DNA of 38,292 nt from NCBI GenBank assembly GCA_017646765.1, contig JAGCMD010000026.1:1-38292 (forward strand), in the 5' to 3' direction. Of the stretch, positions 13,803 to 37,880 are shown piece by piece (positions within the stretch are counted from its first letter, which is position 1; every line of letters starts with the position of its first letter). Below the pieces are notes generated by a model that saw nothing but the letters and a program-made list of their open reading frames with translations, made no database searches and was not told the DNA's origin. Position numbers and translations under genes: made by a program. The stretch is from Elusimicrobiaceae bacterium. GTDB taxonomy: Bacteria; Elusimicrobiota; Elusimicrobia; Elusimicrobiales; Elusimicrobiaceae.

Positions 13803-15272
13803 ATGAATAAAAAATTTTTTATCGTTGTGCTAAGCGGTTTGTTCTTATTGCCGGGATGGAATATTGTATTGGCTCAAGGGGGAGCTGCGGGTAAGGCACT
13901 AGTCAAAGCATCCTCTTGGATCCCCAAACGGGCCAATATCGTTACCGAAATTACGGATGCGGTCAAGCAAAAATCGTTTGAGAAATTATTGGGCGAGGCG
14001 CTTGATTCTCCTTCCAAATTGGTACCTTTGGAAAATTTTCAAGGCAGCCCCGAGCAGGTAGGCAACATTACAAACCGTATTGCGCATACCTTCGGTTATT
14101 CCAAGTTGTTTTCTGCCGAAGAAAAGAAGCTCCTTCGGGAAGGAAATGCCCAGAAATTTTCGGAAGGGGGAGATAAAGCCTTGCTTCCGTTGGCCAAGGC
14201 CCTTTATTTGGAGGGGCTTGATGCCCAAATTATGGCCGAGTTGGGAAAACAGATAACCTTTTCGGAAGCGGAAATGAAGGCTTATATAGATCGTAAATTA
14301 AAATTACAGCGTTTTATAGCGGATATGGAAAACGGATGGGGCAGCCTTTTGAGCCAAACCAGTTTTCGCGGAGCCGACAATCCTTCCCGATACATTGTGA
14401 ACGGTTTTCTTTTGCAAAACCCGGTTCGCGGCGGATCTTTTCATTTAGATATGGTGAAAGACAGAGCGGCCGAGATAGACCGTCTTTTAAGTAAGGGGGG
14501 GATTAACAAAGGTTTCTTTTTACTTAATAAACAAGAAAATGCCTATTTTGCATCGTTGTCGCTGGCCGATCAAAGAAAATTTGCCCAAATCAAATATCAG
14601 CAAGCCGCTGAAAGTGTATTTTACTATTATAGGAAAGGATTTTTAAATATGACAGCCAACGACTTTAGACAATTTTATGCTTGGAGAAACCGGGCCGAAT
14701 ACTTTAGAAATTTATCTAAGGTGTTGGAGACGGAAACATTTCCTCGTTCTACGATTAGTTTAGGATTTGAAGAGGCCCCCAACAGCCCGTTTGCCCAATT
14801 ACGTTTACTTCCTCCGGCTCAGCGTATGGGCAGATTGCAATTTGATATTGACCGTATGGTTGACTCGGAGGCGAAGCAAACGTTGGTGACGGAATTGGCT
14901 CGCCAAAAATCGCTCTACGAACGCCATGCTTTTTCACAAACTTTTGGTGTGCCGTATCATCAAGTGCCGGATCTAAACGGAAGACACTATGACGAATTTT
15001 TAACTCAAATAAAATTTATGTTCGGCAAGAGAAAAAGTGACGGAAAACTATGGTCGGATGTAATCCGCGGATTTGAGACGAGTTACGGTCTTGAAAAACA
15101 TAATGACGTACTTAGAAAGATTACTAATGCGCAACAAGCGTTTGCCCCCAAGCTAAAAGAAGATTTTATGCAATACTACAAATGGTCTTATGAGAAAGGA
15201 GTGTATGGCTCGCTGCAAGGATTTTTTGAGCGTGCCCACAGACGTGGATATCAATTAAATGACCCCGAATAA
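13803..15272 (+). CDS. Exported protein of unknown function (489 aa)
   Basis: 489 residues. A classical signal peptide (MNKKFFIVVLSG, hydrophobic core, cleavage likely after VLA at residue 24) shows export. The mature protein is mostly helical and charged, rich in Phe/Tyr/Gln/Lys in its middle part, with no cysteines, no later membrane helix and no repeats that I can see. AGAGGGAA precedes the ATG. I recognise no domain. A perfect palindrome covers its promoter, so expression is probably switched. A TTGCAC/TATAGT promoter for the next gene lies just beyond its stop. It could be a periplasmic or secreted factor of a lineage-specific family. Confidence 0.75.
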   Translation: MNKKFFIVVLSGLFLLPGWNIVLAQGGAAGKALVKASSWIPKRANIVTEITDAVKQKSFEKLLGEALDSPSKLVPLENFQGSPEQVGNITNRIAHTFGYSKLFSAEEKKLLREGNAQKFSEGGDKALLPLAKALYLEGLDAQIMAELGKQITFSEAEMKAYIDRKLKLQRFIADMENGWGSLLSQTSFRGADNPSRYIVNGFLLQNPVRGGSFHLDMVKDRAAEIDRLLSKGGINKGFFLLNKQENAYFASLSLADQRKFAQIKYQQAAESVFYYYRKGFLNMTANDFRQFYAWRNRAEYFRNLSKVLETETFPRSTISLGFEEAPNSPFAQLRLLPPAQRMGRLQFDIDRMVDSEAKQTLVTELARQKSLYERHAFSQTFGVPYHQVPDLNGRHYDEFLTQIKFMFGKRKSDGKLWSDVIRGFETSYGLEKHNDVLRKITNAQQAFAPKLKEDFMQYYKWSYEKGVYGSLQGFFERAHRRGYQLNDPE

Positions 15273-27997: not shown

Positions 27998-28426
27998 ATG
28001 GCAGAAGAAAAACCTTATTTAACCGGGCGGACGTACCTTTTTAAACTCCCCAAAGGTAAAGACCTGGTGGAATCGTTGGCGGATTTTTGCCACGATAACC
28101 AAGTCAAATGCGGGATTGTAAGCGTGGTAGGGTGTGTGGCAAATGCTACGCTGGGATATTATGACCAAGCTAAAAAACGCTACGAGAAAACGGTTATTAA
28201 CCAACCGTTGGAGCTGTTACATATGACCGGCAATATCTCTATTCAAGATAACCGGCCTATGGTGCATGCTCACGTAACGCTGGCAGACGAAGAATATAAT
28301 GTAATCGGCGGGCATTTACTGCCGGGTACTAAAATACATGTCTGCGAAGCGTATGTGCAAGAGCTGGTGGGCGAGCCAAAAGTCCGTCGGACCGATAAAG
28401 TAACTAAACTGGCCCTTTGGGGTTAA
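27998..28426 (+). CDS. PPC/DUF296-domain protein
   Basis: 142 residues after GGAGGAA, 16 bases behind the transketolase gene. The PPC fold is shown by RTYLFKLPKGKDLVESL at the start and the triad H90, H92 and H106 in VHAHVTLADEEYNVIGGHL, which holds a metal ion in solved bacterial members. The role of the family in bacteria is unclear; in plants it joins AT-hook DNA-binding proteins. No DNA-binding part is attached here. Probable last gene of the M42 operon. Confidence 0.88.
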   Translation: MAEEKPYLTGRTYLFKLPKGKDLVESLADFCHDNQVKCGIVSVVGCVANATLGYYDQAKKRYEKTVINQPLELLHMTGNISIQDNRPMVHAHVTLADEEYNVIGGHLLPGTKIHVCEAYVQELVGEPKVRRTDKVTKLALWG

Positions 28427-28450
28427 GCTAAGTTGCGTTTTTTGTGAAAC

Positions 28451-28485
28451 GAAAAACCCCCGGCTGCGCCGGGGGTTGGCTTTTT
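28451..28485. terminator. Bidirectional terminator between convergent genes
   Basis: CCCCCGGC (28457-28464) and GCCGGGGG (28468-28475) around TGC, with AAAAA on the left and TTGGCTTTTT on the right. It serves the PPC gene on the plus strand and the giant exported-protein gene on the minus strand. Confidence 0.9.
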
Positions 28486-28488
28486 CAA

Positions 28489-31400
28489 TTAGTAAGCTTG
28501 AGAGTGAGCGGGTGAGGTGCCTTCCTGATAGAACTCCTCATAATCATCCTCACTTTGCGATTGGGACGGGGCGGCCTGCTCCCGGGCAGAAGACGCCTTT
28601 GGCGCAGCAAGCTGATAGAATTTTTCTTCAAATTCGTCCCAGATTTTATTAAGGGCCTGTTGCAAGTCCGTTCTTAAAAATGGGAGTTCATTATTCTCTA
28701 ATTTTCTTAAATAGGAATCTGCTGTTTGTCGTATTTTAGCGGCAAAAGGCTCCGCTTCTTGCGGATATCCCAGTTCTTCAAATGCTTGTTCTATTACGAG
28801 CTGATAGAACAGACACATCCCCTCAATGGCAATCTCAAGTGCTTCGCGTAACAAAGCTGTCTGTTTTTCCTCAGAGAGCGAATTGAACTGTTTGAGCAAT
28901 TCTGTATCGGAGATTTGGTCTATCTGTTTTGCTGCCGGCGAAAGCCCGTAGTCCAAGTAATGTTGTTCGTTTAGCCTGGGAGTAACTTGGCGGTCCAGTT
29001 CCGTTATTTTTTGCATCAATTCTTCCTCCGTTATAGTATCCAGCGAATTTTTCCAGCTGTCAACGGTACTGATTGCATTTTTATAAATATTCAATTTACG
29101 GATCAATCTTATATCTTCTTCCAGTCCGCTGGTGCGATCTTGGTAGTTGTTTATCCAGAAATTTCTCGCCTCTATATTCTGTTCCTGGAAATGGATTTTA
29201 TAATTATAGAGGGTCGTTAACTTGTCTGCTTTTTCGTTGTGCTTTTTGTTTATTACTTCCGCTTGTTCTATTTGTTCCAAACCGCTGCCTTCCAAGTTTT
29301 CAAGATCTTTTTCCCATTGGTCTAATTCTTCGTGGATGGCTTTTAAATCTTGGGCAAAAAGTTTATCTGCGTCGGGCAAAGCTCCGCCATTTGTATAGAA
29401 AAAGGGCGTTTCCACAACCGCACGATAATCGGCTACACCGTCCGCAAGTATCTTCTTAGTCATAACCGCGTGCGTATTCACTAAGAAGTTTTCCTGAGCT
29501 TTTCGGGCGTCTAATTGCTTTTTTAACGCGTCCATCTGTTCGTATATTTTCATATCCATGAGGTGCGTTCCGAACAGTTTATCTATGCCGGCCATTCCGA
29601 GCAGAGCAGGCATTAAAAAGACATCTGCTTCGCGGTCAAGCATATCAAGCACGGGGTCTTTAGGTGTTTTAGGGGCCGCCAATGCCTGAGAAAGCGGATC
29701 CGTCGGTTCTGCTTGTCCCGTTTCCAATAAGGCATTATAGGTTTTCTCCCATTCCGGATCGTTTATCTTTTTAAGAGCTTCTTCTGTTTGTTCTTTTTCC
29801 AAATGTTTTAAGAACATATCTTTGCTCCATCCTGCGGCAGGCCCGTAAATAAATTTCCATTTGGCAAAGAATTTGACGTTTTGGTAGAAGCTTTTAAGTA
29901 AATTACCCGGTTGATTCCACCACAGTTTAGTGAGGGCTCCCGCAGGCATATATCCTTGTTCGGCCATGATATCAGCCGTCAATTTAGTAATGTTTCCGTC
30001 TTCATCTATCAAGCCAAAATTCTTAGCTGTTTGCGTATCTTTTAACAGAGAATTAAGGATGTTAACATCTTTTTCCATCATAGCACTGGCTGCATCCGGG
30101 GTAAATCCGCTAGCCGTTTTTACGTCGGCTTGATATATAAAAGCGTTTTGAAACTCGGTAGCTTCGGCAGCGGAGACGCTTGCTTTTTTGGCGGTAGCTT
30201 TGGAGACCGGTTTGGTAATGGCCACCCGTACTTGCTCGGTTAAGGTATGGGATTCCGGGGCTACACCCGAGTATCTTCCAAACACTTTTTTTTCTGGGCC
30301 TACAAGGATTTCCATCGTTGTTTTACCGTCTTTAGAAGTTATCTTACTTAACAAAGCCTCCGGCTCCCGTTGGAGTGCCTGTAAGACATTTTGCGCATCT
30401 TTAGCACTCACGCGAAGATAAGAATTTCCGCCATCGGCAGATACCCACCAATCTACAGTTTCCGGGTTTTTGGCTAGCGCCCGTGCATACACTTGTTGTG
30501 TTTCTAGGTAAGCGCGGGTTTGGGCACTTACGGCTTCTCCGCTTATGCCGACAGCCAATTCTTCGCTGCCCCAGACGCCAGGCCGCGGCCCAACCGCTTT
30601 CGTAATTACTCGTTCATGCGCCTGAAATTTTTTGGCATTGTTGTAAAATTTTCCCTTGCCTGGGACCAATTTGCCGGCGTACTCCGTTTCAAGTTTTACA
30701 ACAGCTCTATCAGCCGTCTCTATTTCCGTAGAGAGTTTGGTAATAGGTTTGCGGAAGCTTATCAATTTTGGATTATCGTAAACGCTCTGCATTTGATAGA
30801 GGGGCTTTCCCTTTCTAAAAATGAAGTTTCCGTCTTCGTGGAGCGTATATTCCACACCTGTTTTAACCTTTTTGATGCGGCCCGTTTGAGCGCTTGTTTG
30901 AACCACGGGCCGGCCCAACTGCATATCTTTTTGGGCAGTCGTAGCCGCTGCAAGATTAAGGTCACTCCATTTATCAAATTGAGCAATTTTTCTGTTATAC
31001 ATTTTTTTGAACGCACTGAAGAACGTTCGGATGCCGCTGCGCGTGAATGTGAGTGCGCTGTTAGAGGCTTCCCTAAGCGCTCGGATAGAAGTTTGAAATT
31101 CACCGGCGAGGCCCTGGTCTTTGGAGAGGGCTTCGCCGAACCCTTTTTCCAAGTATGCGATGGTTTCTTCCATCTTAGCGGTTGCCGCAGCGAAATCGGC
31201 CTTTTCTCCGGTTTGCCCGGCCTTGGTAAGCAAGTTTTCGGTTTCCGTCAATAACGTTTGCGCTTTTGTATCCGCCTTTAGCGTATTTTTTAAGTTAGCT
31301 GAGGCGGCAGCGGCGGTACTGGCGGCGTTTTCCCAGCGTTGCAATTGCATGGCTTTAGTGGCCACGTTATTTAATCCCGCCGTTGCAGCTGCCAAATCGG

Positions 31401-34017
31401 CGGAGTTCCCGGCTTTTGCCAAAATGGCGGCGGCTTCCCGGCTCTTTTGGGCCGCTTCGCCGTATTTAGCGGCTCTGGCGGCAGCCGTAACTTCTTTTTC
31501 AGCGGCCTTGAAAGCTTGCGTCGCTTCACCCCACAACTTGGAAGCTTGGGGGGCATTTTCGGCCACGTTAGCCATCACTTTATCGGTTTGTATCAAAAGC
31601 TCTTGTGCCTGCATCCCCGCGCGGACTGTTTGAGCTTTGCTAACGAATTTTGCCGTTTTGAAAGCACTCGGCAGGGCTGACGCGGAAACTCGGATCAGGC
31701 GTATGAATTTAAATGTGCCGCTTAATATATACTCAAAGATTTTACCGCCGATTACCCATAATATAGCTTCCCAAACAAGATTGACGGTGCCGGCTAATAC
31801 CTGCAAATCGCTTAAGTAATGATCAAGCGGATTGTTATGATAAATATGGGCCAATTTCCGGTTTCCCTGCCGATCTTTTTGATTGGAGTATATCCAAGAG
31901 CCATAGATTTCATTTTTTAGATTGAATTCTTGGTCAGATTCTTTAGTTGATTTTTCTAATCCGGCGTTTATAAAATTTATGGATATGGGCGGGGCATCTC
32001 GTTGTTCTACAATTTCCGTTAGGGGGCGTCCATCCAAGCCGGGATGAGTGACCGTTTTCATCCGGGGAGCTGTAATGGGAGCAAGCCGGTCTAACGCGTC
32101 GGCCAACGCATCTTGAAGTCTTTCATATCGTTGGATTTCCACATGGTAACCGGAAAAAACACCAACCCTCAATGTCCCGTATTGCTCTTCCGCATGGGCA
32201 TTTAAAAGAACATCTGCAATATTTCTGGCCAGCGAGTCGCGTTGCTGCTGAGTGAAAAAGTAAGGCGCTTGAGCCTCGCGGTTTTTTACCACGGCTTGTT
32301 TATCAGCGCCGGAGAAATCCGCTTGGGTTTTAACAGGGTGTTCCGTTCCTAAATCATGTTTGAGATAAAAGTTCTTACCTGCTACCGACCCGGGATTAAA
32401 GACCTCGGGGAGGGGAACTCGGAGGTCATTGAGCGTAGCTGCCGTCGTAGCAGCCAATATCTTTACGCTGGCACATTTGTTATTGGCGGAGGTTACCAAT
32501 AAATTCTGAATTTTTTTAACGGTAGCTGTGGGAATTTGATTATTTTGGAAATAATAAAGTATTGTGCTAAAGAAAGCCCCTTGGATGTCAAAAAGCAGGT
32601 GGTCTTCTTCGGAGTTCAAAAATTGTTGGTCGCACTCTGGGTTGAATAAATCAAGTACGGCGGGCAAGAAATCGTTGTTTCCTTTAAAGGTAAGTTGATC
32701 GGTTTCTAAAGCATACATAACAGCGTATTGCATAAGCGCGCTGGCAGCGTCTATGGGCATGACCGAGTTTTTACTGCCCGGGGCAAACGCCTTTAATTCG
32801 TTATAGAAATCGGAGGTAAAATCCTCAAATATATGCTCAAAAGAGGTTACCTCGGCAAAATCCTCGTTTCTGCTATACCCCACAATGTGATAGTTGCTGG
32901 GGATATAGGCAAAAGAAGCAACTTGTATCATTTGGTCTAAATGGTCTGTATCAAGCGGATCAAATGCGAAAATATCTTTTCCTTCCGGCCCCTTGAGTAT
33001 TACGGGTTTGGCAAGCGCTTCTTGAAAAACTTTCTCCGGTACGGCCGTATAGCTCTCCTGCGTATTGGTAACAGGAAATTTTTTAATTGGATTGGGTTTA
33101 CCCATCTTTTGATAAAGCTGGTCTAATCTAAACAAGGCCAAACGGTACGAATATCTTTGTAAGAAAGACAGTTGGTCTTGCACCAGAAGGGGGACGTCCG
33201 AGTTTTGCACGAGTTCCAAAGCGTGCAAAACGTGAGCTGTAGCTTGCGGCAAGAGGTCTAAGATAATATCCTGAATATTGGGATCTTGATATTGCTGGGC
33301 TGCCTGCAACGCGCTGACCAATGCTTCGGTAGCATAAACAGAAATATAACGCGCTGCTTTTTTATTCTCATTATTCGGGTTGAATGGAATCTCTCCGCCC
33401 GGATTGTCTATCATTCTCATGAAAGACTCCATTTGCTCTATCCACCCGTCTATGGTTGGCGGTTCTTGGTTTGCAATTTCTTGAAATTTATCAAAGGCAG
33501 CTTGGGCAAAGGCTTCTTCCTTGTTCCTGCGATCTGCCACTGCGGAATCGTTGCGACGGGGCTCCGAGGGTGCTATGGCATCCGCTGGGTGAGTAAGATT
33601 ATCATACGTGGCGCGGACTTCATCATCCCGAACCGGGGAAAGGTCTGAAGTTGCCCTTTGGTACTGCCGGTTCAGGCCCGTTGTCGCGTGCAGGATTTGC
33701 ATATACGAGCCAAAGCTTTCCGCGGCTTTTTCATCACCGGAAGTAAAATCTAAGGTTTCGTATTTGTCCGCTAATTGCATCATGGCCGCTACATACAAGT
33801 CTTCCTTTTCTTGAGCATTTCTGGCATATTTAAAAAAATTCGTCTCATTAAAATAATACGGTTGTGCTTCGCCGTGCGACGGCGCTTGTTGCGCGCGGAG
33901 TGAATACGAGCCATATGGGCCGGCCCGGTCCGCCACTTGTTGCGCGCGGAGTAAATCCGGCGCCACAATATTAAAGGTGAAAACTAAAATTAAAAAACGG
34001 CAGATCCATGTAATCAT
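28489..34017 (-). CDS. Giant exported protein of unknown function (1842 aa)
   Basis: 1842 residues, 14 per cent of the window. A signal peptide covers about residues 1-25 (hydrophobic ILVFTFNIV, then LLRAQQ). Residues 60-550 are helical with HEAT-like pairs (around 225-275 and 490-540). A hydrophobic stretch at about 740-775 (LAGTVNLVWEAILWVIGGKIFEYIL) could be a membrane segment or buried helix. Residues 800-960 are Ala-rich coiled coil with TPR-like spacing. Residues 1050-1260 look beta-rich (HEDGNFIFRKGKPLYQ, WWVSADGGNSYLRVSAKD, ILVGPEKKVFGRYSG). Residues 1560-1800 are charged helices, ending in a Ser/Gln/Glu-rich tail. No catalytic motif is evident. GGAGAA precedes the ATG. It is probably periplasmic or surface-located; I assign no function. 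Confidence 0.8.
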   Translation of the reverse strand: MITWICRFLILVFTFNIVAPDLLRAQQVADRAGPYGSYSLRAQQAPSHGEAQPYYFNETNFFKYARNAQEKEDLYVAAMMQLADKYETLDFTSGDEKAAESFGSYMQILHATTGLNRQYQRATSDLSPVRDDEVRATYDNLTHPADAIAPSEPRRNDSAVADRRNKEEAFAQAAFDKFQEIANQEPPTIDGWIEQMESFMRMIDNPGGEIPFNPNNENKKAARYISVYATEALVSALQAAQQYQDPNIQDIILDLLPQATAHVLHALELVQNSDVPLLVQDQLSFLQRYSYRLALFRLDQLYQKMGKPNPIKKFPVTNTQESYTAVPEKVFQEALAKPVILKGPEGKDIFAFDPLDTDHLDQMIQVASFAYIPSNYHIVGYSRNEDFAEVTSFEHIFEDFTSDFYNELKAFAPGSKNSVMPIDAASALMQYAVMYALETDQLTFKGNNDFLPAVLDLFNPECDQQFLNSEEDHLLFDIQGAFFSTILYYFQNNQIPTATVKKIQNLLVTSANNKCASVKILAATTAATLNDLRVPLPEVFNPGSVAGKNFYLKHDLGTEHPVKTQADFSGADKQAVVKNREAQAPYFFTQQQRDSLARNIADVLLNAHAEEQYGTLRVGVFSGYHVEIQRYERLQDALADALDRLAPITAPRMKTVTHPGLDGRPLTEIVEQRDAPPISINFINAGLEKSTKESDQEFNLKNEIYGSWIYSNQKDRQGNRKLAHIYHNNPLDHYLSDLQVLAGTVNLVWEAILWVIGGKIFEYILSGTFKFIRLIRVSASALPSAFKTAKFVSKAQTVRAGMQAQELLIQTDKVMANVAENAPQASKLWGEATQAFKAAEKEVTAAARAAKYGEAAQKSREAAAILAKAGNSADLAAATAGLNNVATKAMQLQRWENAASTAAAASANLKNTLKADTKAQTLLTETENLLTKAGQTGEKADFAAATAKMEETIAYLEKGFGEALSKDQGLAGEFQTSIRALREASNSALTFTRSGIRTFFSAFKKMYNRKIAQFDKWSDLNLAAATTAQKDMQLGRPVVQTSAQTGRIKKVKTGVEYTLHEDGNFIFRKGKPLYQMQSVYDNPKLISFRKPITKLSTEIETADRAVVKLETEYAGKLVPGKGKFYNNAKKFQAHERVITKAVGPRPGVWGSEELAVGISGEAVSAQTRAYLETQQVYARALAKNPETVDWWVSADGGNSYLRVSAKDAQNVLQALQREPEALLSKITSKDGKTTMEILVGPEKKVFGRYSGVAPESHTLTEQVRVAITKPVSKATAKKASVSAAEATEFQNAFIYQADVKTASGFTPDAASAMMEKDVNILNSLLKDTQTAKNFGLIDEDGNITKLTADIMAEQGYMPAGALTKLWWNQPGNLLKSFYQNVKFFAKWKFIYGPAAGWSKDMFLKHLEKEQTEEALKKINDPEWEKTYNALLETGQAEPTDPLSQALAAPKTPKDPVLDMLDREADVFLMPALLGMAGIDKLFGTHLMDMKIYEQMDALKKQLDARKAQENFLVNTHAVMTKKILADGVADYRAVVETPFFYTNGGALPDADKLFAQDLKAIHEELDQWEKDLENLEGSGLEQIEQAEVINKKHNEKADKLTTLYNYKIHFQEQNIEARNFWINNYQDRTSGLEEDIRLIRKLNIYKNAISTVDSWKNSLDTITEEELMQKITELDRQVTPRLNEQHYLDYGLSPAAKQIDQISDTELLKQFNSLSEEKQTALLREALEIAIEGMCLFYQLVIEQAFEELGYPQEAEPFAAKIRQTADSYLRKLENNELPFLRTDLQQALNKIWDEFEEKFYQLAAPKASSAREQAAPSQSQSEDDYEEFYQEGTSPAHSQAY

Positions 34018-34049
34018 AAATTCTCCTGTGGGTAAAAAAACTTTATACT

Positions 34050-34080
34050 ACTATTATAGTGTTTTTTATAGTAAAAACAA
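34050..34080 (-). promoter_or_regulatory. Promoter of the giant exported-protein gene, with small palindrome
   Basis: On the minus strand TTGTTT (34075-34080), 16-base spacer, TATAAT (34053-34058). The -10 is centred in ACTAT-A-ATAGT (34050-34060), an 11-bp palindrome that could be an operator. Confidence 0.6.
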
Positions 34081-34088
34081 GGCCTATT

Positions 34089-34094
34089 TTGACA
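34089..34094 (+). promoter_or_regulatory. Consensus -35 hexamer between divergent genes
   Basis: A perfect TTGACA on the plus strand. No convincing -10 lies 16-18 bases downstream (the best is CATCTA), so it may be accidental or need an activator. It lies too far from the GH57 -10 at 34202 to serve it. Confidence 0.25.
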
Positions 34095-34099
34095 AGAAA

Positions 34100-34145
34100 A
34101 AATACCCAGTTGCATCTAGGTCTTTAGACCTAGGCGGGGTTTTTA
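34100..34145. terminator. Terminator-like hairpin upstream of the GH57 gene
   Basis: CTAGGTC (34116-34122), TTTA, GACCTAG (34127-34133), flanked by an outer ACCC/GGGG pairing, with AAAAAAT on the left and GGGGTTTTT on the right. It lies between two divergent genes, so it ends neither. It may insulate the GH57 promoter or act as an attenuator. Confidence 0.55.
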
Positions 34146-34201
34146 ATTGAAAGTACAAAAACGGAAATAAAAAAAGCACAGCAAATAATGCGCAAATGGG
34201 T

Positions 34202-34207
34202 TACAAT
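34202..34207 (+). promoter_or_regulatory. -10 element of a probable leaderless promoter (GH57 gene)
   Basis: TACAAT ends six bases before ATG 34214. No ribosome site is present. Confidence 0.5.
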
Positions 34208-34213
34208 ATATAT

Positions 34214-36577
34214 ATGAAGTATCTTTGTATACACGGACACTTTTATCAACCGCCCCGCGAAAATGCGTGGTTGGAAATCATTGAACAGCAAGACAGTGCT
34301 GCCCCTTATCACGATTGGAACGAACGTATTTGTGCCGAATGCTATGCGCCCAATGCGCTTGCACGGCTGTTGGACGGACAACAAAATCTAATTCAACTTA
34401 CCAATAACTATTCATATATCAGTTTTAATTTTGGCCCGACGCTGCTTAGCTGGATGGAGAAAAAAGAGCCCGAAGTATACCAATCTATTTTGGAAGCAGA
34501 TAAATTAAGCCGGGTGCGTTTTGGCGGGCACGGCAGTGCTATTGCCCAGGCGTACAATCATATGATTTTGCCGCTGGCTAACGACAGAGATAAAGAAACC
34601 CAAATCAAATGGGGCATTGCCGATTTTACCAAACGCTTTGGCCGCGCACCGGAAGCTTTGTGGCTGGCCGAAACGGCGTGTGATACGCCCACCTTGTGTG
34701 CGTTGGCCGACGCCGGGATGAAGTTTGTGATTTTAGCGCCCGGTCAATGTGCGCGCATCCGCAAGATCGGGGAAGAGAAATGGCAGGAAGTTGGTTCGTC
34801 GGTGGATCCCAAACGCGCGTACCGATGCAACTTGCCTAACGGCAAAAGTATCGCCCTCTTTTTTTATGACGGGCCTATTTCGCAAGGGATTGCTTTTTCG
34901 GACACATTATCGTCCGGGGAAAAATTCGCTTCGCGGTTACTCAGCACCTACAACAACAGCGAAGAACCGCAACTGATGCACATCGCTACGGACGGAGAAA
35001 CCTACGGCCACCACCAAAAATTTGCCGATATGGCCCTGGCCTATTGTTTAAAGAAAGTGCAGGAAACGCCGGATGTGGAACTGACCGTTTACGGCGAATT
35101 TTTGGAAAAAAATCCGCCGCTGTATGAAGCGCAAATTGTGGAAAATTCTTCGTGGAGTTGTTGCCACGGGGTAGAGCGTTGGCGTGCCAACTGCGGGTGT
35201 AATTCCGGGCGTCCCGGCTGGCACCAGAAATGGCGCGGGCCGTTGCGCGCAGCGTTAGATTTTGTGCGCGATGAGCTTATCCAAACTTTTCAGACGGTCG
35301 GCGCGGAATATTTTAAAGACCCGTGGGCCGCGCGTAACGATTATATAGATTTAATGTTGGACCGCAGTTTAGACGCGCAACACCGTTTCTTCTTAAAACA
35401 CGCTACCGAAAAGGCTTGGAACGACCGTCCCGGCGCGCTTATGTTACTTGAAATGCAGAAAAATGCCTTGTTTATGTACACAAGCTGCGGGTGGTTTTTT
35501 GACGAAATCAGCGGCTTGGAAACGGTGCAAATTATGCAATATGCCTGCCGCGCGCTGGAGTTAAACCGCCGGATGAGTGGTAAGGATGTAGAGCCGGCTT
35601 TTATTGAAAAGCTCGCCCTGGCTCCCAGCAACATTAAAGAACTTAAAAACGGGGCCAATGTGTATGAACGGTATGTTAAACCGCAAGCGACCCCGGTGGA
35701 AAAGATTGCCCTGGCGCACATTATTTCGCTTTTTGCCGACGAGACCGTCAACCCGCACCGCGCTTTCTGTTGGGATGTCACCCACTTTGCGCCGCACAAA
35801 TTTTCCGCACAAAATACGCGTTTGTGGGCGGGGGAAATAACCCTTAAGTCTACTATTACCGTAGAGGAAAAAACCGTTCGCTTTGCCGTTTTCCGTCAAG
35901 GGGCAGCCGTGTTCACTTGTGCGGCACAACTGGCGGATGAATCAAATTTTGCAGCGTTACTTAGTGAATTGGAAAATTTATTTAATACGCAGCAATACGA
36001 ACAATTGCAAGAACGTATTTCTCAAACATTTACCTACAGTTGTTTGGTATCTTCCATGATTAACGACGTGCGCCGCCGCGTGATGGAAAGCACGTTTCGT
36101 AAAATGGATGAGCAAACCGACCGGCAATTTTCGCAACTGTTCCAAACGCAGTATCCCATGGTGCGTGCGTTACAACTGATTGGGGCGCCGGTGCCGCAGA
36201 CGTTTTTGACGGTGGCTTCTTTTGTGCTTGCGGAAGATTTGAAGGCGGAAATCCGCGCGGCGGAAATTAACATCGGGGCGTTGGAAGAGCTGATGGAAGA
36301 TGTAAAAGCATTGGGGCTTACCGTGCCGGAAAGTGTTAATGAAGTGGTTACCGAGCGTGTTTCGTCGTTGGCGTTTGCTTTTGCGCGTAACCCGGTCAGT
36401 ACGGCGGCCGTGATGAAATTGGTGGAACTGTTAAATTACGCCGACATTTTCGGTTTTACCCCCGATATTGTCAAAGCACAGGAATTTGTGTTTTTAGGCA
36501 TTGAAAATTTAGGTGCCGAAGCCCGCAATAAAGATATCTTGCGTGCGCTGGCGCGCAAATTAAAAATCGCTTTATAA
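34214..36577 (+). CDS. Glycoside hydrolase family 57 protein with DUF3536 domain
   Basis: 787 residues. The N-terminus MKYLCIHGHFYQPPREN carries the GH57 HGH motif (H7, H9). The expected catalytic nucleophile is Glu153 in LWLAETACD, and the acid/base is Asp260 in HIATDGETYGHH. A cysteine cluster (SSWSCCHGVERWRANCGC, about 310-327) follows, and the C-terminal half (about 340-787) matches the layout of DUF3536. GH57 members act on alpha-glucans (amylase, amylopullulanase, branching enzyme, 4-alpha-glucanotransferase). There is no signal peptide, so it acts in the cytoplasm, probably on glycogen-like polymer. ATG 34214 is chosen over 34196 because the family begins here and the -10 overlaps the longer version. 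Confidence 0.9.
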   Translation: MKYLCIHGHFYQPPRENAWLEIIEQQDSAAPYHDWNERICAECYAPNALARLLDGQQNLIQLTNNYSYISFNFGPTLLSWMEKKEPEVYQSILEADKLSRVRFGGHGSAIAQAYNHMILPLANDRDKETQIKWGIADFTKRFGRAPEALWLAETACDTPTLCALADAGMKFVILAPGQCARIRKIGEEKWQEVGSSVDPKRAYRCNLPNGKSIALFFYDGPISQGIAFSDTLSSGEKFASRLLSTYNNSEEPQLMHIATDGETYGHHQKFADMALAYCLKKVQETPDVELTVYGEFLEKNPPLYEAQIVENSSWSCCHGVERWRANCGCNSGRPGWHQKWRGPLRAALDFVRDELIQTFQTVGAEYFKDPWAARNDYIDLMLDRSLDAQHRFFLKHATEKAWNDRPGALMLLEMQKNALFMYTSCGWFFDEISGLETVQIMQYACRALELNRRMSGKDVEPAFIEKLALAPSNIKELKNGANVYERYVKPQATPVEKIALAHIISLFADETVNPHRAFCWDVTHFAPHKFSAQNTRLWAGEITLKSTITVEEKTVRFAVFRQGAAVFTCAAQLADESNFAALLSELENLFNTQQYEQLQERISQTFTYSCLVSSMINDVRRRVMESTFRKMDEQTDRQFSQLFQTQYPMVRALQLIGAPVPQTFLTVASFVLAEDLKAEIRAAEINIGALEELMEDVKALGLTVPESVNEVVTERVSSLAFAFARNPVSTAAVMKLVELLNYADIFGFTPDIVKAQEFVFLGIENLGAEARNKDILRALARKLKIAL

Positions 36578-36584
36578 GTGTTTT

Positions 36585-37880
36585 TTAAAACGCACCGCCG
36601 ATAACAAATCCTACCTGGTGGCTGCCGTCCTGTAAGTTGTGTGTGTAATTGATTCCAAAAGGTAGCGGAAAGCGCCATAAGCGGTAAAATAAGTTGGCGC
36701 CTGCTCCGCTGTGCGGGCGAAACGAGCCCTCCACGCGCGTGTAAGAAATTTCATAAAACGGGGCCAATGATAGAAGGCCTGTTTGGTTTCGCAACAAATA
36801 ATACGCAAAAGAAATGCCGGCTCCGGCGGCTCGGTCGCCGCGGAACTGCCGGTCGTATTTTCCCGCCCCGGTCAGGACTTCGGTAGAAAGAATTTGGTCG
36901 GTAAAATCGGCTTCAAATGCCTCTTGGGCCTTAACCTCGGCAATCAATAGGTGGCGTCCCGGAAATTCTAAAATACCTGTTCCTTGGGCGGCTAATTTAG
37001 AAATCGCATAATCACTGTCACTCCATTTTCCGCCTCCGCTGTACGCTAACGAAGCACTATATCCCGTGCGGGCATGAGGTAAATCCTGCAAGCTTTTTTG
37101 TTTGTCCGTTAATCCATATCCGGCCAGCGCTCCCATATTCATACCGGGACGGATATCGTTAGAAAAATGGAGGCCGGCTGTCAGTGCGTGGTGGTTGCCG
37201 CTGTCTAATTGGTTTTGGGCGTAGACCACGCGGTTGTAAACCGGGGAGATAAACACACGTCCCGATGGTGAAAAGCGGTAGTTATATAACAAAGAAATTT
37301 TATCTTGTCTGGCTCGTACCGAGCGCAAAAGCGAGCTGCGGTGGTCGTCGTCATCAGTAGTAGAAAAAACGCTATATACATTACTCCAGCCGCCGCGGTA
37401 AAAGTTTTGGTCAAAGTGGAGTTGGGTATAGGCCATAGTTAAAAGATGCCGGCCGATGGAGATTCCCTTGCGTGTGGTAAAACCGTCTTTACTGCCGCCC
37501 GCAAAGAAGAAAATTTGCTCGGCTTGTTTAAATAAATTCCCGGCTACGACCGACGCTCCGGCCGCACTTTTGGAGCCTCCGGTAAAAAAGGCCAGTGGAA
37601 AAATATAATATCCGTCTTGAGCGTTGATGGTGATATCAATTTGCCCGTTGTGTTCGGTTTCGGAAAATTCCAATTTCTTAAATACGCGTAATTTGTGCAG
37701 GTCATCTTGGGCTTTTTCGTAAGCGGCGGGGGAAAAACTATCCCCCGGTTTTAGTTGGAAACGATGGAGCAATGTCTGGGGTTGCATACGGGTTGTTTGG
37801 GCGGTAATGTGTTGTACGGTTTGTGCAGCGAGTCCATTTACAAGCCCGAGGATAAATAAAATAAGAAAAAATTTTTTCAT
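36585..37880 (-). CDS. Omp85/BamA-like outer-membrane beta-barrel protein
   Basis: 431 residues. Signal peptide MKKFFLILFILGLVNGLAA with cleavage before Gln20. Residues about 22-92 form one POTRA-like domain (FQLKPGDSFSPAAYEKAQDDLHKLRVF). The rest is a barrel of alternating, aromatic-rich strands. QFRGDRAAGAGISFAYYLL resembles the VRGF/Y-containing loop-6 motif of Omp85 proteins, and the last residue is Phe, the usual outer-membrane assembly signal. BamA has five POTRA domains and about 800 residues, so this is a short relative, possibly TamA-like or an uncharacterised surface antigen. It converges with the GH57 gene with 7 bases between them and no clear terminator. Confidence 0.78.
   Translation of the reverse strand: MKKFFLILFILGLVNGLAAQTVQHITAQTTRMQPQTLLHRFQLKPGDSFSPAAYEKAQDDLHKLRVFKKLEFSETEHNGQIDITINAQDGYYIFPLAFFTGGSKSAAGASVVAGNLFKQAEQIFFFAGGSKDGFTTRKGISIGRHLLTMAYTQLHFDQNFYRGGWSNVYSVFSTTDDDDHRSSLLRSVRARQDKISLLYNYRFSPSGRVFISPVYNRVVYAQNQLDSGNHHALTAGLHFSNDIRPGMNMGALAGYGLTDKQKSLQDLPHARTGYSASLAYSGGGKWSDSDYAISKLAAQGTGILEFPGRHLLIAEVKAQEAFEADFTDQILSTEVLTGAGKYDRQFRGDRAAGAGISFAYYLLRNQTGLLSLAPFYEISYTRVEGSFRPHSGAGANLFYRLWRFPLPFGINYTHNLQDGSHQVGFVIGGAF

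Follow-up and report, generated by a model that had tools for sequence, protein, structure and literature searches.

What does an exported protein of 1842 residues, in which an initial annotation made from the DNA alone found no recognisable domain, do for the bacterium that encodes it, and how has it evolved? The gene lies in the window analysed here, the whole 38,292-nucleotide contig JAGCMD010000026.1 of an Elusimicrobiaceae bacterium (assembly GCA_017646765.1). ORF analysis confirms it on the minus strand (28489-34017), with a start codon at 34017, a stop codon at 28491-28489 and 1842 uninterrupted codons. The frame is not a chance one, since its leader and start are conserved in the sister genome (G064, UBA1202) and homologous long open frames exist in 45 genomes. 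What the sister keeps comprises a ribosome-binding-like GGAG stretch, the start codon itself and the codons for the signal peptide.

The leader and promoter region of the giant gene (34018-34210, minus strand, with the GGAG before its ATG) is common to the divergent GH57 gene on the other side. For the regulated-looking promoter that had been proposed for the giant, support goes no further than the leader, which is 87% identical to that of the sister over the aligned stretch; a simple scan found one promoter-like site against 0.8 ± 1.0 in shuffled sequences, which is not above chance. Rfam gave no match over 28000-34600. A short palindrome, TAGGTC..GACCTA, is found at 34104-34134 in the divergent promoter region and is largely kept in the sister.

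We then asked how far the protein extends beyond its own genome, which holds a single copy without paralogues. Used as the sole query, it matched 12 of 61 genomes including its own, all from the same genus; these matches were weak, the better ones mostly at 26-33% identity in open frames of about 1300-2440 residues. None of 24 genomes outside the genus was matched by this query. A profile made from 13 N-termini (A2) reached 45 of the 66 genomes of the genus. The neighbouring GH57 gene, present in all 66, divides the genus into two subclades, one of 46 genomes (at least 67% identity, or the gene split over contigs) and one of 20 (60-64%). The giant was found in 45 of the 46 genomes of the first subclade and in none of the 20 of the second; the lone first-subclade genome without it, G085, has its GH57 gene near a contig end. 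Across the phylum, a further profile (A4) matched 46 of 340 genomes, 45 of them in the genus, and two of these 45 are second-subclade genomes with weak matches near the hydrophobic segment only, in other, shorter proteins. A weak A4 match in G109 (genus g15) lies in a frame that is secretin-like by our own reading and was dropped as a family member. Scans of genome contigs confirmed 0 of 18 stretches with the single window sequence and 8 of 21, at 7 named loci, with alignment A3. In viral contigs 0 of 1 stretch was confirmed, and phage records contained no match to the giant.

In total, 56 giants were collected from the 45 genomes, after large frames that by eye were plainly other proteins (among them a helicase, an RND pump and GH57) had been left out, along with one frame of 698 residues (G022). 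Forty-nine are complete with a stop codon, ranging from 930 to 2436 residues with a median of 1299. The genomes of these gut Elusimicrobia are small, about 0.9-1.8 Mb. The relatives at named loci belong to uncultured Elusimicrobium, Elusimicrobiaceae or Elusimicrobia assemblies, five of which are labelled RUG or UBA; a habitat was given for two, namely sheep rumen and horse faeces. The window giant has nothing above cut-off in Pfam and no sequence relation in the PDB, and searches of Pfam, PDB sequences and Foldseek revealed no confident match to a known family over most of its length. Among Pfam, NCBIfam, PADLOC and PHROGs, the only domains found in the family are J-domains in relatives, the window copy being without a Pfam match. 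The absence of a recognisable domain thus holds for the window copy in Pfam, but not for the family, in which 18 of 50 scanned members carry a J-domain. No description of the family was found in the literature searched, within the terms used. By its sequence, the giant is a member of a previously unnamed, genus-restricted family of predicted exported, mostly helical proteins, as the initial annotation had surmised when it suggested a lineage-specific family of giants; profile search now extends it to 45 genomes.

Most giants occupy one syntenic locus, in the usual order GH57, PhoH, giant, ferredoxin-NADP reductase-like (FNR-like) and GltD-like, where neighbours were identified by BLAST to reference neighbours and named by us from sequence. 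The exact arrangement of a PhoH-like gene, the giant and a convergent FNR-like gene, with the divergent GH57 and the GltD-like gene next outward, was found for 20 of the 56. In the window, the giant stands directly beside the syntenic marker of the locus, a GH57 gene with DUF3536 (34196-36577, plus strand; Pfam, BLAST), and PhoH does not adjoin it; the sister locus (L107) has the order GH57, giant, PhoH.

Both ends of the giant stand out from its body. The signal peptide (residues 1-26; 33940-34017, minus strand), delimited by the sister alignment and the family profile, displays an N-terminal positive residue, a hydrophobic core (hydropathy 2.02) and a small residue before the cleavage point, which by the usual -3/-1 rule we take to follow A25. 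This Sec signal-peptide pattern, already proposed from the window sequence, is kept in 27 aligned members, and most members conform to M-x-[ST]-[FW]-x-[CS]-R-x(5)-F-x(2)-N-x(3)-P-x(4)-A-Q. Between window and sister, 24 of 27 signal-peptide residues are identical, against 585 of 1601 in the body; across the 27 members, mean column identity is 58% in the signal peptide versus 18-24% in full-length alignments. The peptide is dedicated to the family: a profile of it (A7) matched only giants in 10 of 10 genomes, with a next best hit at E 0.15. The signal peptide ends in LRAQQ, and a few residues on, at residue 39, SLRAQQ repeats it (about 33880-33970); on its sequence, this repeat is a small local duplication, which the sister lacks. 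At the other end, the tail (28489-28551, minus strand; alignment and residue counts) combines an acidic stretch with a terminal Ala-Tyr, and the charged C-terminus noted earlier is apparent in the nine acidic versus three basic residues of positions 1797-1842. Ala-Tyr closes 15 of the 49 complete giants versus 2 of 492 other frames of the same loci, and any terminal Tyr 22 of 49 versus 9 of 492; the C-terminal Ala-Tyr may be a recognition tag.

Between the ends, the N-terminal half is predicted to be an alpha-solenoid of HEAT/ARM-like arrangement (about residues 60-645; 32083-33840, minus strand). AlphaFold2 models residues 1-856 as a solenoid of helices (pTM 0.58, mean pLDDT 56.8), for which Foldseek returned no match at E <= 0.001; VIA-align superposed it on HEAT/ARM and designed repeat proteins with Z of 8-13 (maximum 13.2), values that the tool itself describes as common for repeat folds. 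These matches imply a similar arrangement and not kinship, and Pfam scans at the limits used listed no curated HEAT/ARM model. The HEAT-like helices of the initial annotation can accordingly be retained as a modelled architecture, but not as a match to a curated family. Prediction was carried out in overlapping segments with a fold search, as had been advised; the model of residues 727-1842 (pTM 0.26) is unreliable apart from the Ala-rich array, and its Foldseek hits were meaningless, with none at E <= 0.001. The beta-rich middle part that had been proposed has little to lean on, the model there being unreliable. The Ala-rich array itself (residues 806-990; 31048-31602, minus strand), anticipated as a coiled coil, contains 26% Ala and is modelled as helices with pLDDT of about 55-85. 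It can be aligned in the window copy and in the sister, and not in most other close relatives.

The suspected internal membrane segment is supported at residues 738-756 (31750-31806, minus strand), a hydrophobic and probably membrane-spanning stretch (Kyte-Doolittle 1.64; alignment) with the family motif E-A-x-L-W-x(2)-G-G. A segment profile could be placed in 46 of the 56 giants, the other 10 not being anchored; segment hydropathy ranges from 0.91 to 2.19 across members and is weak in several. Directly after it comes a basic stretch (31570-31749, minus strand), with 9 K/R and 3 D/E in 60 residues of the window copy. In 45 of the 46 placed giants, K+R is higher in the 60 residues after the segment than in the 60 before (means 11.6 and 6.9), with mean D+E of 1.9 after and 6.8 before. 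Such a basic flank is the positive-inside pattern of a chain that crosses the membrane once and keeps its C-terminal half on the inner side. Cysteine, however, drops from 0.41% before the segment to 0.08% after it, a scarcity that counts against a C-terminal half in the cytoplasm and in favour of export of the whole chain. Overall, the giants contain 0.23% cysteine versus 1.19% in 14 window proteins taken as cytosolic, and are richer than these 14 in Q, N, T, Y and W.

J-domains were found in 18 of 50 scanned giants and were absent from 32, including the window copy. The count combines two sets in which Pfam DnaJ matched 10 of 15 and 8 of 35 members, the window protein being in both and negative in both; the 50 are the 56 giants less six fragments or second copies. 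NCBIfam J-domain models matched 9 of 12 giants. The tripeptide HPD is intact in 15 of the 18 J-domains, replaced by HTD in one and by APD in two; PMC8215388 describes this motif as essential for contact with Hsp70. Wherever both could be placed, the J-domain is located after the hydrophobic segment. In the window giant, the corresponding place (about residues 1193-1255; 30253-30441, minus strand; alignment A3, Pfam/NCBIfam) holds neither a J-domain nor an HPD motif, and Pfam detects no J-domain in the protein. The sister, whose library scan covered NCBIfam only, has none in the alignment or by J profile. As far as alignment can tell, the J-domain is lost from the window copy, which by its domains does not belong to the class C J-domain co-chaperones.

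How the giant evolves is best seen against its flanking genes. Between window and sister, identity amounts to 93.4% for GH57 but to 37.4% (609/1629) for the giant. At the DNA level, the flanks are 83-93% identical and only scraps of 126 and 170 bp remain in the body; these two aside, similarity ends about where the signal peptide ends. Closer pairs permit synonymous divergence to be compared, and dS was tabulated for five genes in 10 pairs picked for closeness (Nei-Gojobori counts in their simple form, Jukes-Cantor corrected and rough beyond values of about 1). In the closest pair, G012/G014, GH57, PhoH, FNR-like and GltD-like are 98-99% identical and the giant 64%, with dS of 0.14, 0.14, 0.14 and 0.17 for the neighbours and 0.82 for the giant. 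In G023/G065, the flanking genes are 96-99% identical and the giant 69%, with dS of 0.26 (GH57), 0.23 (PhoH), 0.31 (FNR-like) and 0.26 (GltD-like) against 0.76. In these two pairs, the closest for which every gene of the five could be compared, the dS of the giant thus exceeds that of its flanks about three- to six-fold. Among the remaining 8 of the 10 it is also the highest or saturated, with flank dS already high in most. Locally raised dS would be expected if a lineage further away had supplied the gene or parts of it; it would not be expected from relaxed or positive selection on the protein.

In some pairs, mosaic structure is visible within the gene itself. Among five close pairs, taken from 903 GH57 pairs, differences at fourfold sites are clustered beyond all 5000 shuffles in three; in two, clustering is not significant (381 and 302 of 5000 shuffles), and a general mosaic pattern is lacking there. 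Identity in windows was compared in the same five pairs plus G074/G084. The giants of G017 and G073 are, in amino acids, mostly 83-98% identical at their ends and 18-38% in a central block. Windows of the G012 giant are mostly nearest to G067, its GH57 being nearest to G014 (99%); the middle of the G014 giant is nearest to G020, despite the pairing of its GH57 with G012. In G015 (L018), three giants stand in tandem: in two of them identity is about 60% across almost all of the length they have in common. The third resembles these two in its leader, its start and a C-terminal part of about 350-400 residues (about 54-63%), with 23-24% in the middle, a pattern suggestive of recombination or conversion at the giant ends. 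Overall dN/dS of 0.15-0.33 in the five close pairs marks the protein as constrained and functional. Together with the raised dS, these comparisons, drawn between species-level genomes and not among strains, point to recurrent replacement of the giant by divergent alleles, as would be expected of polymorphic surface proteins.

From the family, its locus, its conserved ends, its J-domains and the locally raised dS with mosaic blocks, we infer a topology, a position, a selective agent and a chaperone contact as follows. With a probability of roughly 0.5, we regard the giant as an envelope-anchored or surface-exposed alpha-solenoid protein that is diversified by allele exchange and that, in J-bearing members, recruits DnaK. 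The dedicated signal peptide would send the HEAT-like N-terminal half out of the cytoplasm; the hydrophobic segment would anchor the chain in the membrane or lie on it, with the basic stretch on the far side. The HPD-bearing J-domain of relatives would recruit DnaK, acting either in a C-terminal half that stays in the cytoplasm or on a giant that still awaits export; in the window copy, the J-domain appears to be gone and the predicted Ala-rich helical array is present. Exposed in the envelope or at the surface, the giant would be a target of diversifying pressure by phage, predators, competitors or the host, and divergent alleles or blocks would be exchanged between species, both ends and the neighbouring genes staying put. 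The export signal, the composition and the swapping of alleles make the surface role suggested by the initial annotation plausible, but an inner-membrane-anchored giant is equally possible, given the membrane-spanning-like segment and the strongly basic stretch that follows it. A fuller version of the scheme, possible but not likely, joins all its elements: the exported half would face outward, the internal J-domain would bring DnaK to the membrane or to a chain not yet exported, and whole blocks, among them the J-domain, would be gained, lost and traded between species at the one locus.

A possible but doubtful alternative sees in the giant a co-chaperone or scaffold across the inner membrane, with a periplasmic solenoid, one pass and a cytoplasmic half whose J-domain brings DnaK, with no surface role and with fast evolution reflecting loose constraint on spacer helices. 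The positive-inside pattern in 45 of 46 placed giants and the intact HPD in 15 of 18 J-domains agree with this topology. DjlA is a membrane co-chaperone, and the DjlA model is among the NCBIfam matches of the 9 of 12 giants, although it falls below the curated cut-off in the one member with scores. Such a function, however, fits poorly with a J-domain missing from 32 of 50 scanned members, the window copy among them, and with a cysteine-poor C-terminal half; nor would loose constraint raise dS about three- to six-fold above the flanks.

That same cysteine depletion, which runs throughout the protein, favours a giant that is exported in full and then either released or retained at the outer surface. 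The J-domain would in that case be a pre-export DnaK hook that keeps the chain unfolded for Sec, and the terminal Ala-Tyr (15/49 versus 2/492 in controls) a sorting or processing tag. The dedicated signal peptide is also in keeping with full export, which we nevertheless consider unlikely: transfer would tend to halt at the conserved hydrophobic segment with its basic flank, and Pfam and NCBIfam revealed no known outer-membrane secretion signal.

The variable body between conserved ends, and the three tandem copies of G015 with ends about 60% alike and one middle at 23-24%, also recall a polymorphic interbacterial toxin or recognition protein, in which a conserved delivery part carries a variable payload. 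This is very improbable, since scans of Pfam, NCBIfam, PADLOC and PHROGs yielded no toxin domain, no variable small immunity-like gene adjoins the giant in the conserved gene order and variability is not limited to the C-terminus. An assembly or binning artefact or a decaying gene, conceivable for contigs of metagenome-assembled genomes on which some fragments end at contig edges, is refuted by the 56 long frames that 45 genomes conserve, for the most part at a single syntenic locus, and by the dN/dS of 0.15-0.33 in five close pairs, and its probability is negligible.

The reading of an envelope giant diversified by allele exchange can also be set against known systems. Polymorphic bacterial surface proteins that evolve by recombination are a general kind, and the giant resembles them in its fixed locus, conserved ends and flanks, raised dS and mosaic blocks; it differs in that its surface exposure is deduced and its variation lies between species-level genomes instead of strains. 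Its N-terminal model resembles the alpha-solenoids of HEAT/ARM proteins (karyopherins, adaptins and designed repeats; Z 8-13), from which it is separated by the lack of a PDB sequence relation or a Foldseek match at E <= 0.001, so that the arrangement is common and the family is not. J-bearing giants are reminiscent of DjlA and of the DjlB/DjlC type through their HPD motif and hydrophobic segment, and of DjlA through the NCBIfam model, the listed score being below cut-off. Unlike these proteins, the giants reach 0.9-2.4 thousand residues and have a signal peptide and a presumably exported HEAT-like half, and the window copy has no J-domain. Class C J-domain proteins, according to the review PMC8215388, have only the J-domain in common with DnaJ and may hold transmembrane regions, the J-domain being in some cases a late add-on. 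On this reading, the giant works like a polymorphic surface protein, and J-bearing members possibly also like a membrane J-protein.

Almost every genome of one subclade has the giant, and apparent allele exchange lets it diverge much more quickly than the genes around it; its place is therefore probably at the interface of these little-studied gut bacteria with phages, predators or the host. The unusual pairing of export and an internal J-domain in one giant could show whether DnaK helps to export or anchor giant proteins; if the fuller scheme is correct, a polymorphic surface trait has taken in a co-chaperone module.

Other exported proteins were noticed along the way. One of 431 residues, encoded in the window at 36585-37880 (minus strand), has a sub-threshold POTRA match and, among four genomes, a 72% identical copy in G011 and no match in G064, G021 and G015. 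The other subclade and genus g12 (L111, L114-L123) encode several exported proteins of about 660-1490 residues, some of which adjoin genes for an ankyrin-like repeat protein, Era and SmpB. Those of 800-1490 residues share with the giants their large size, their export and a marginal match at the hydrophobic segment (hhalign probability 42 and 52%; A4 profile E 1.2e-5 in G068 and 6.6e-7 in G010), and differ in their loci and signal peptide and in showing no J-domain motif by pattern in the frames read; any link to the giants is, at the sequence level, marginal. Finally, the window encodes near SmpB an exported protein of 489 residues (13803-15272, plus strand) with no Pfam match, which is 41% identical in the sister, against 93% for GH57; of the 66 genomes of the genus, 19 match it at E <= 1e-5. 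As this protein is hyper-divergent too, part of the divergence of the giant may be common to exported proteins of the group.
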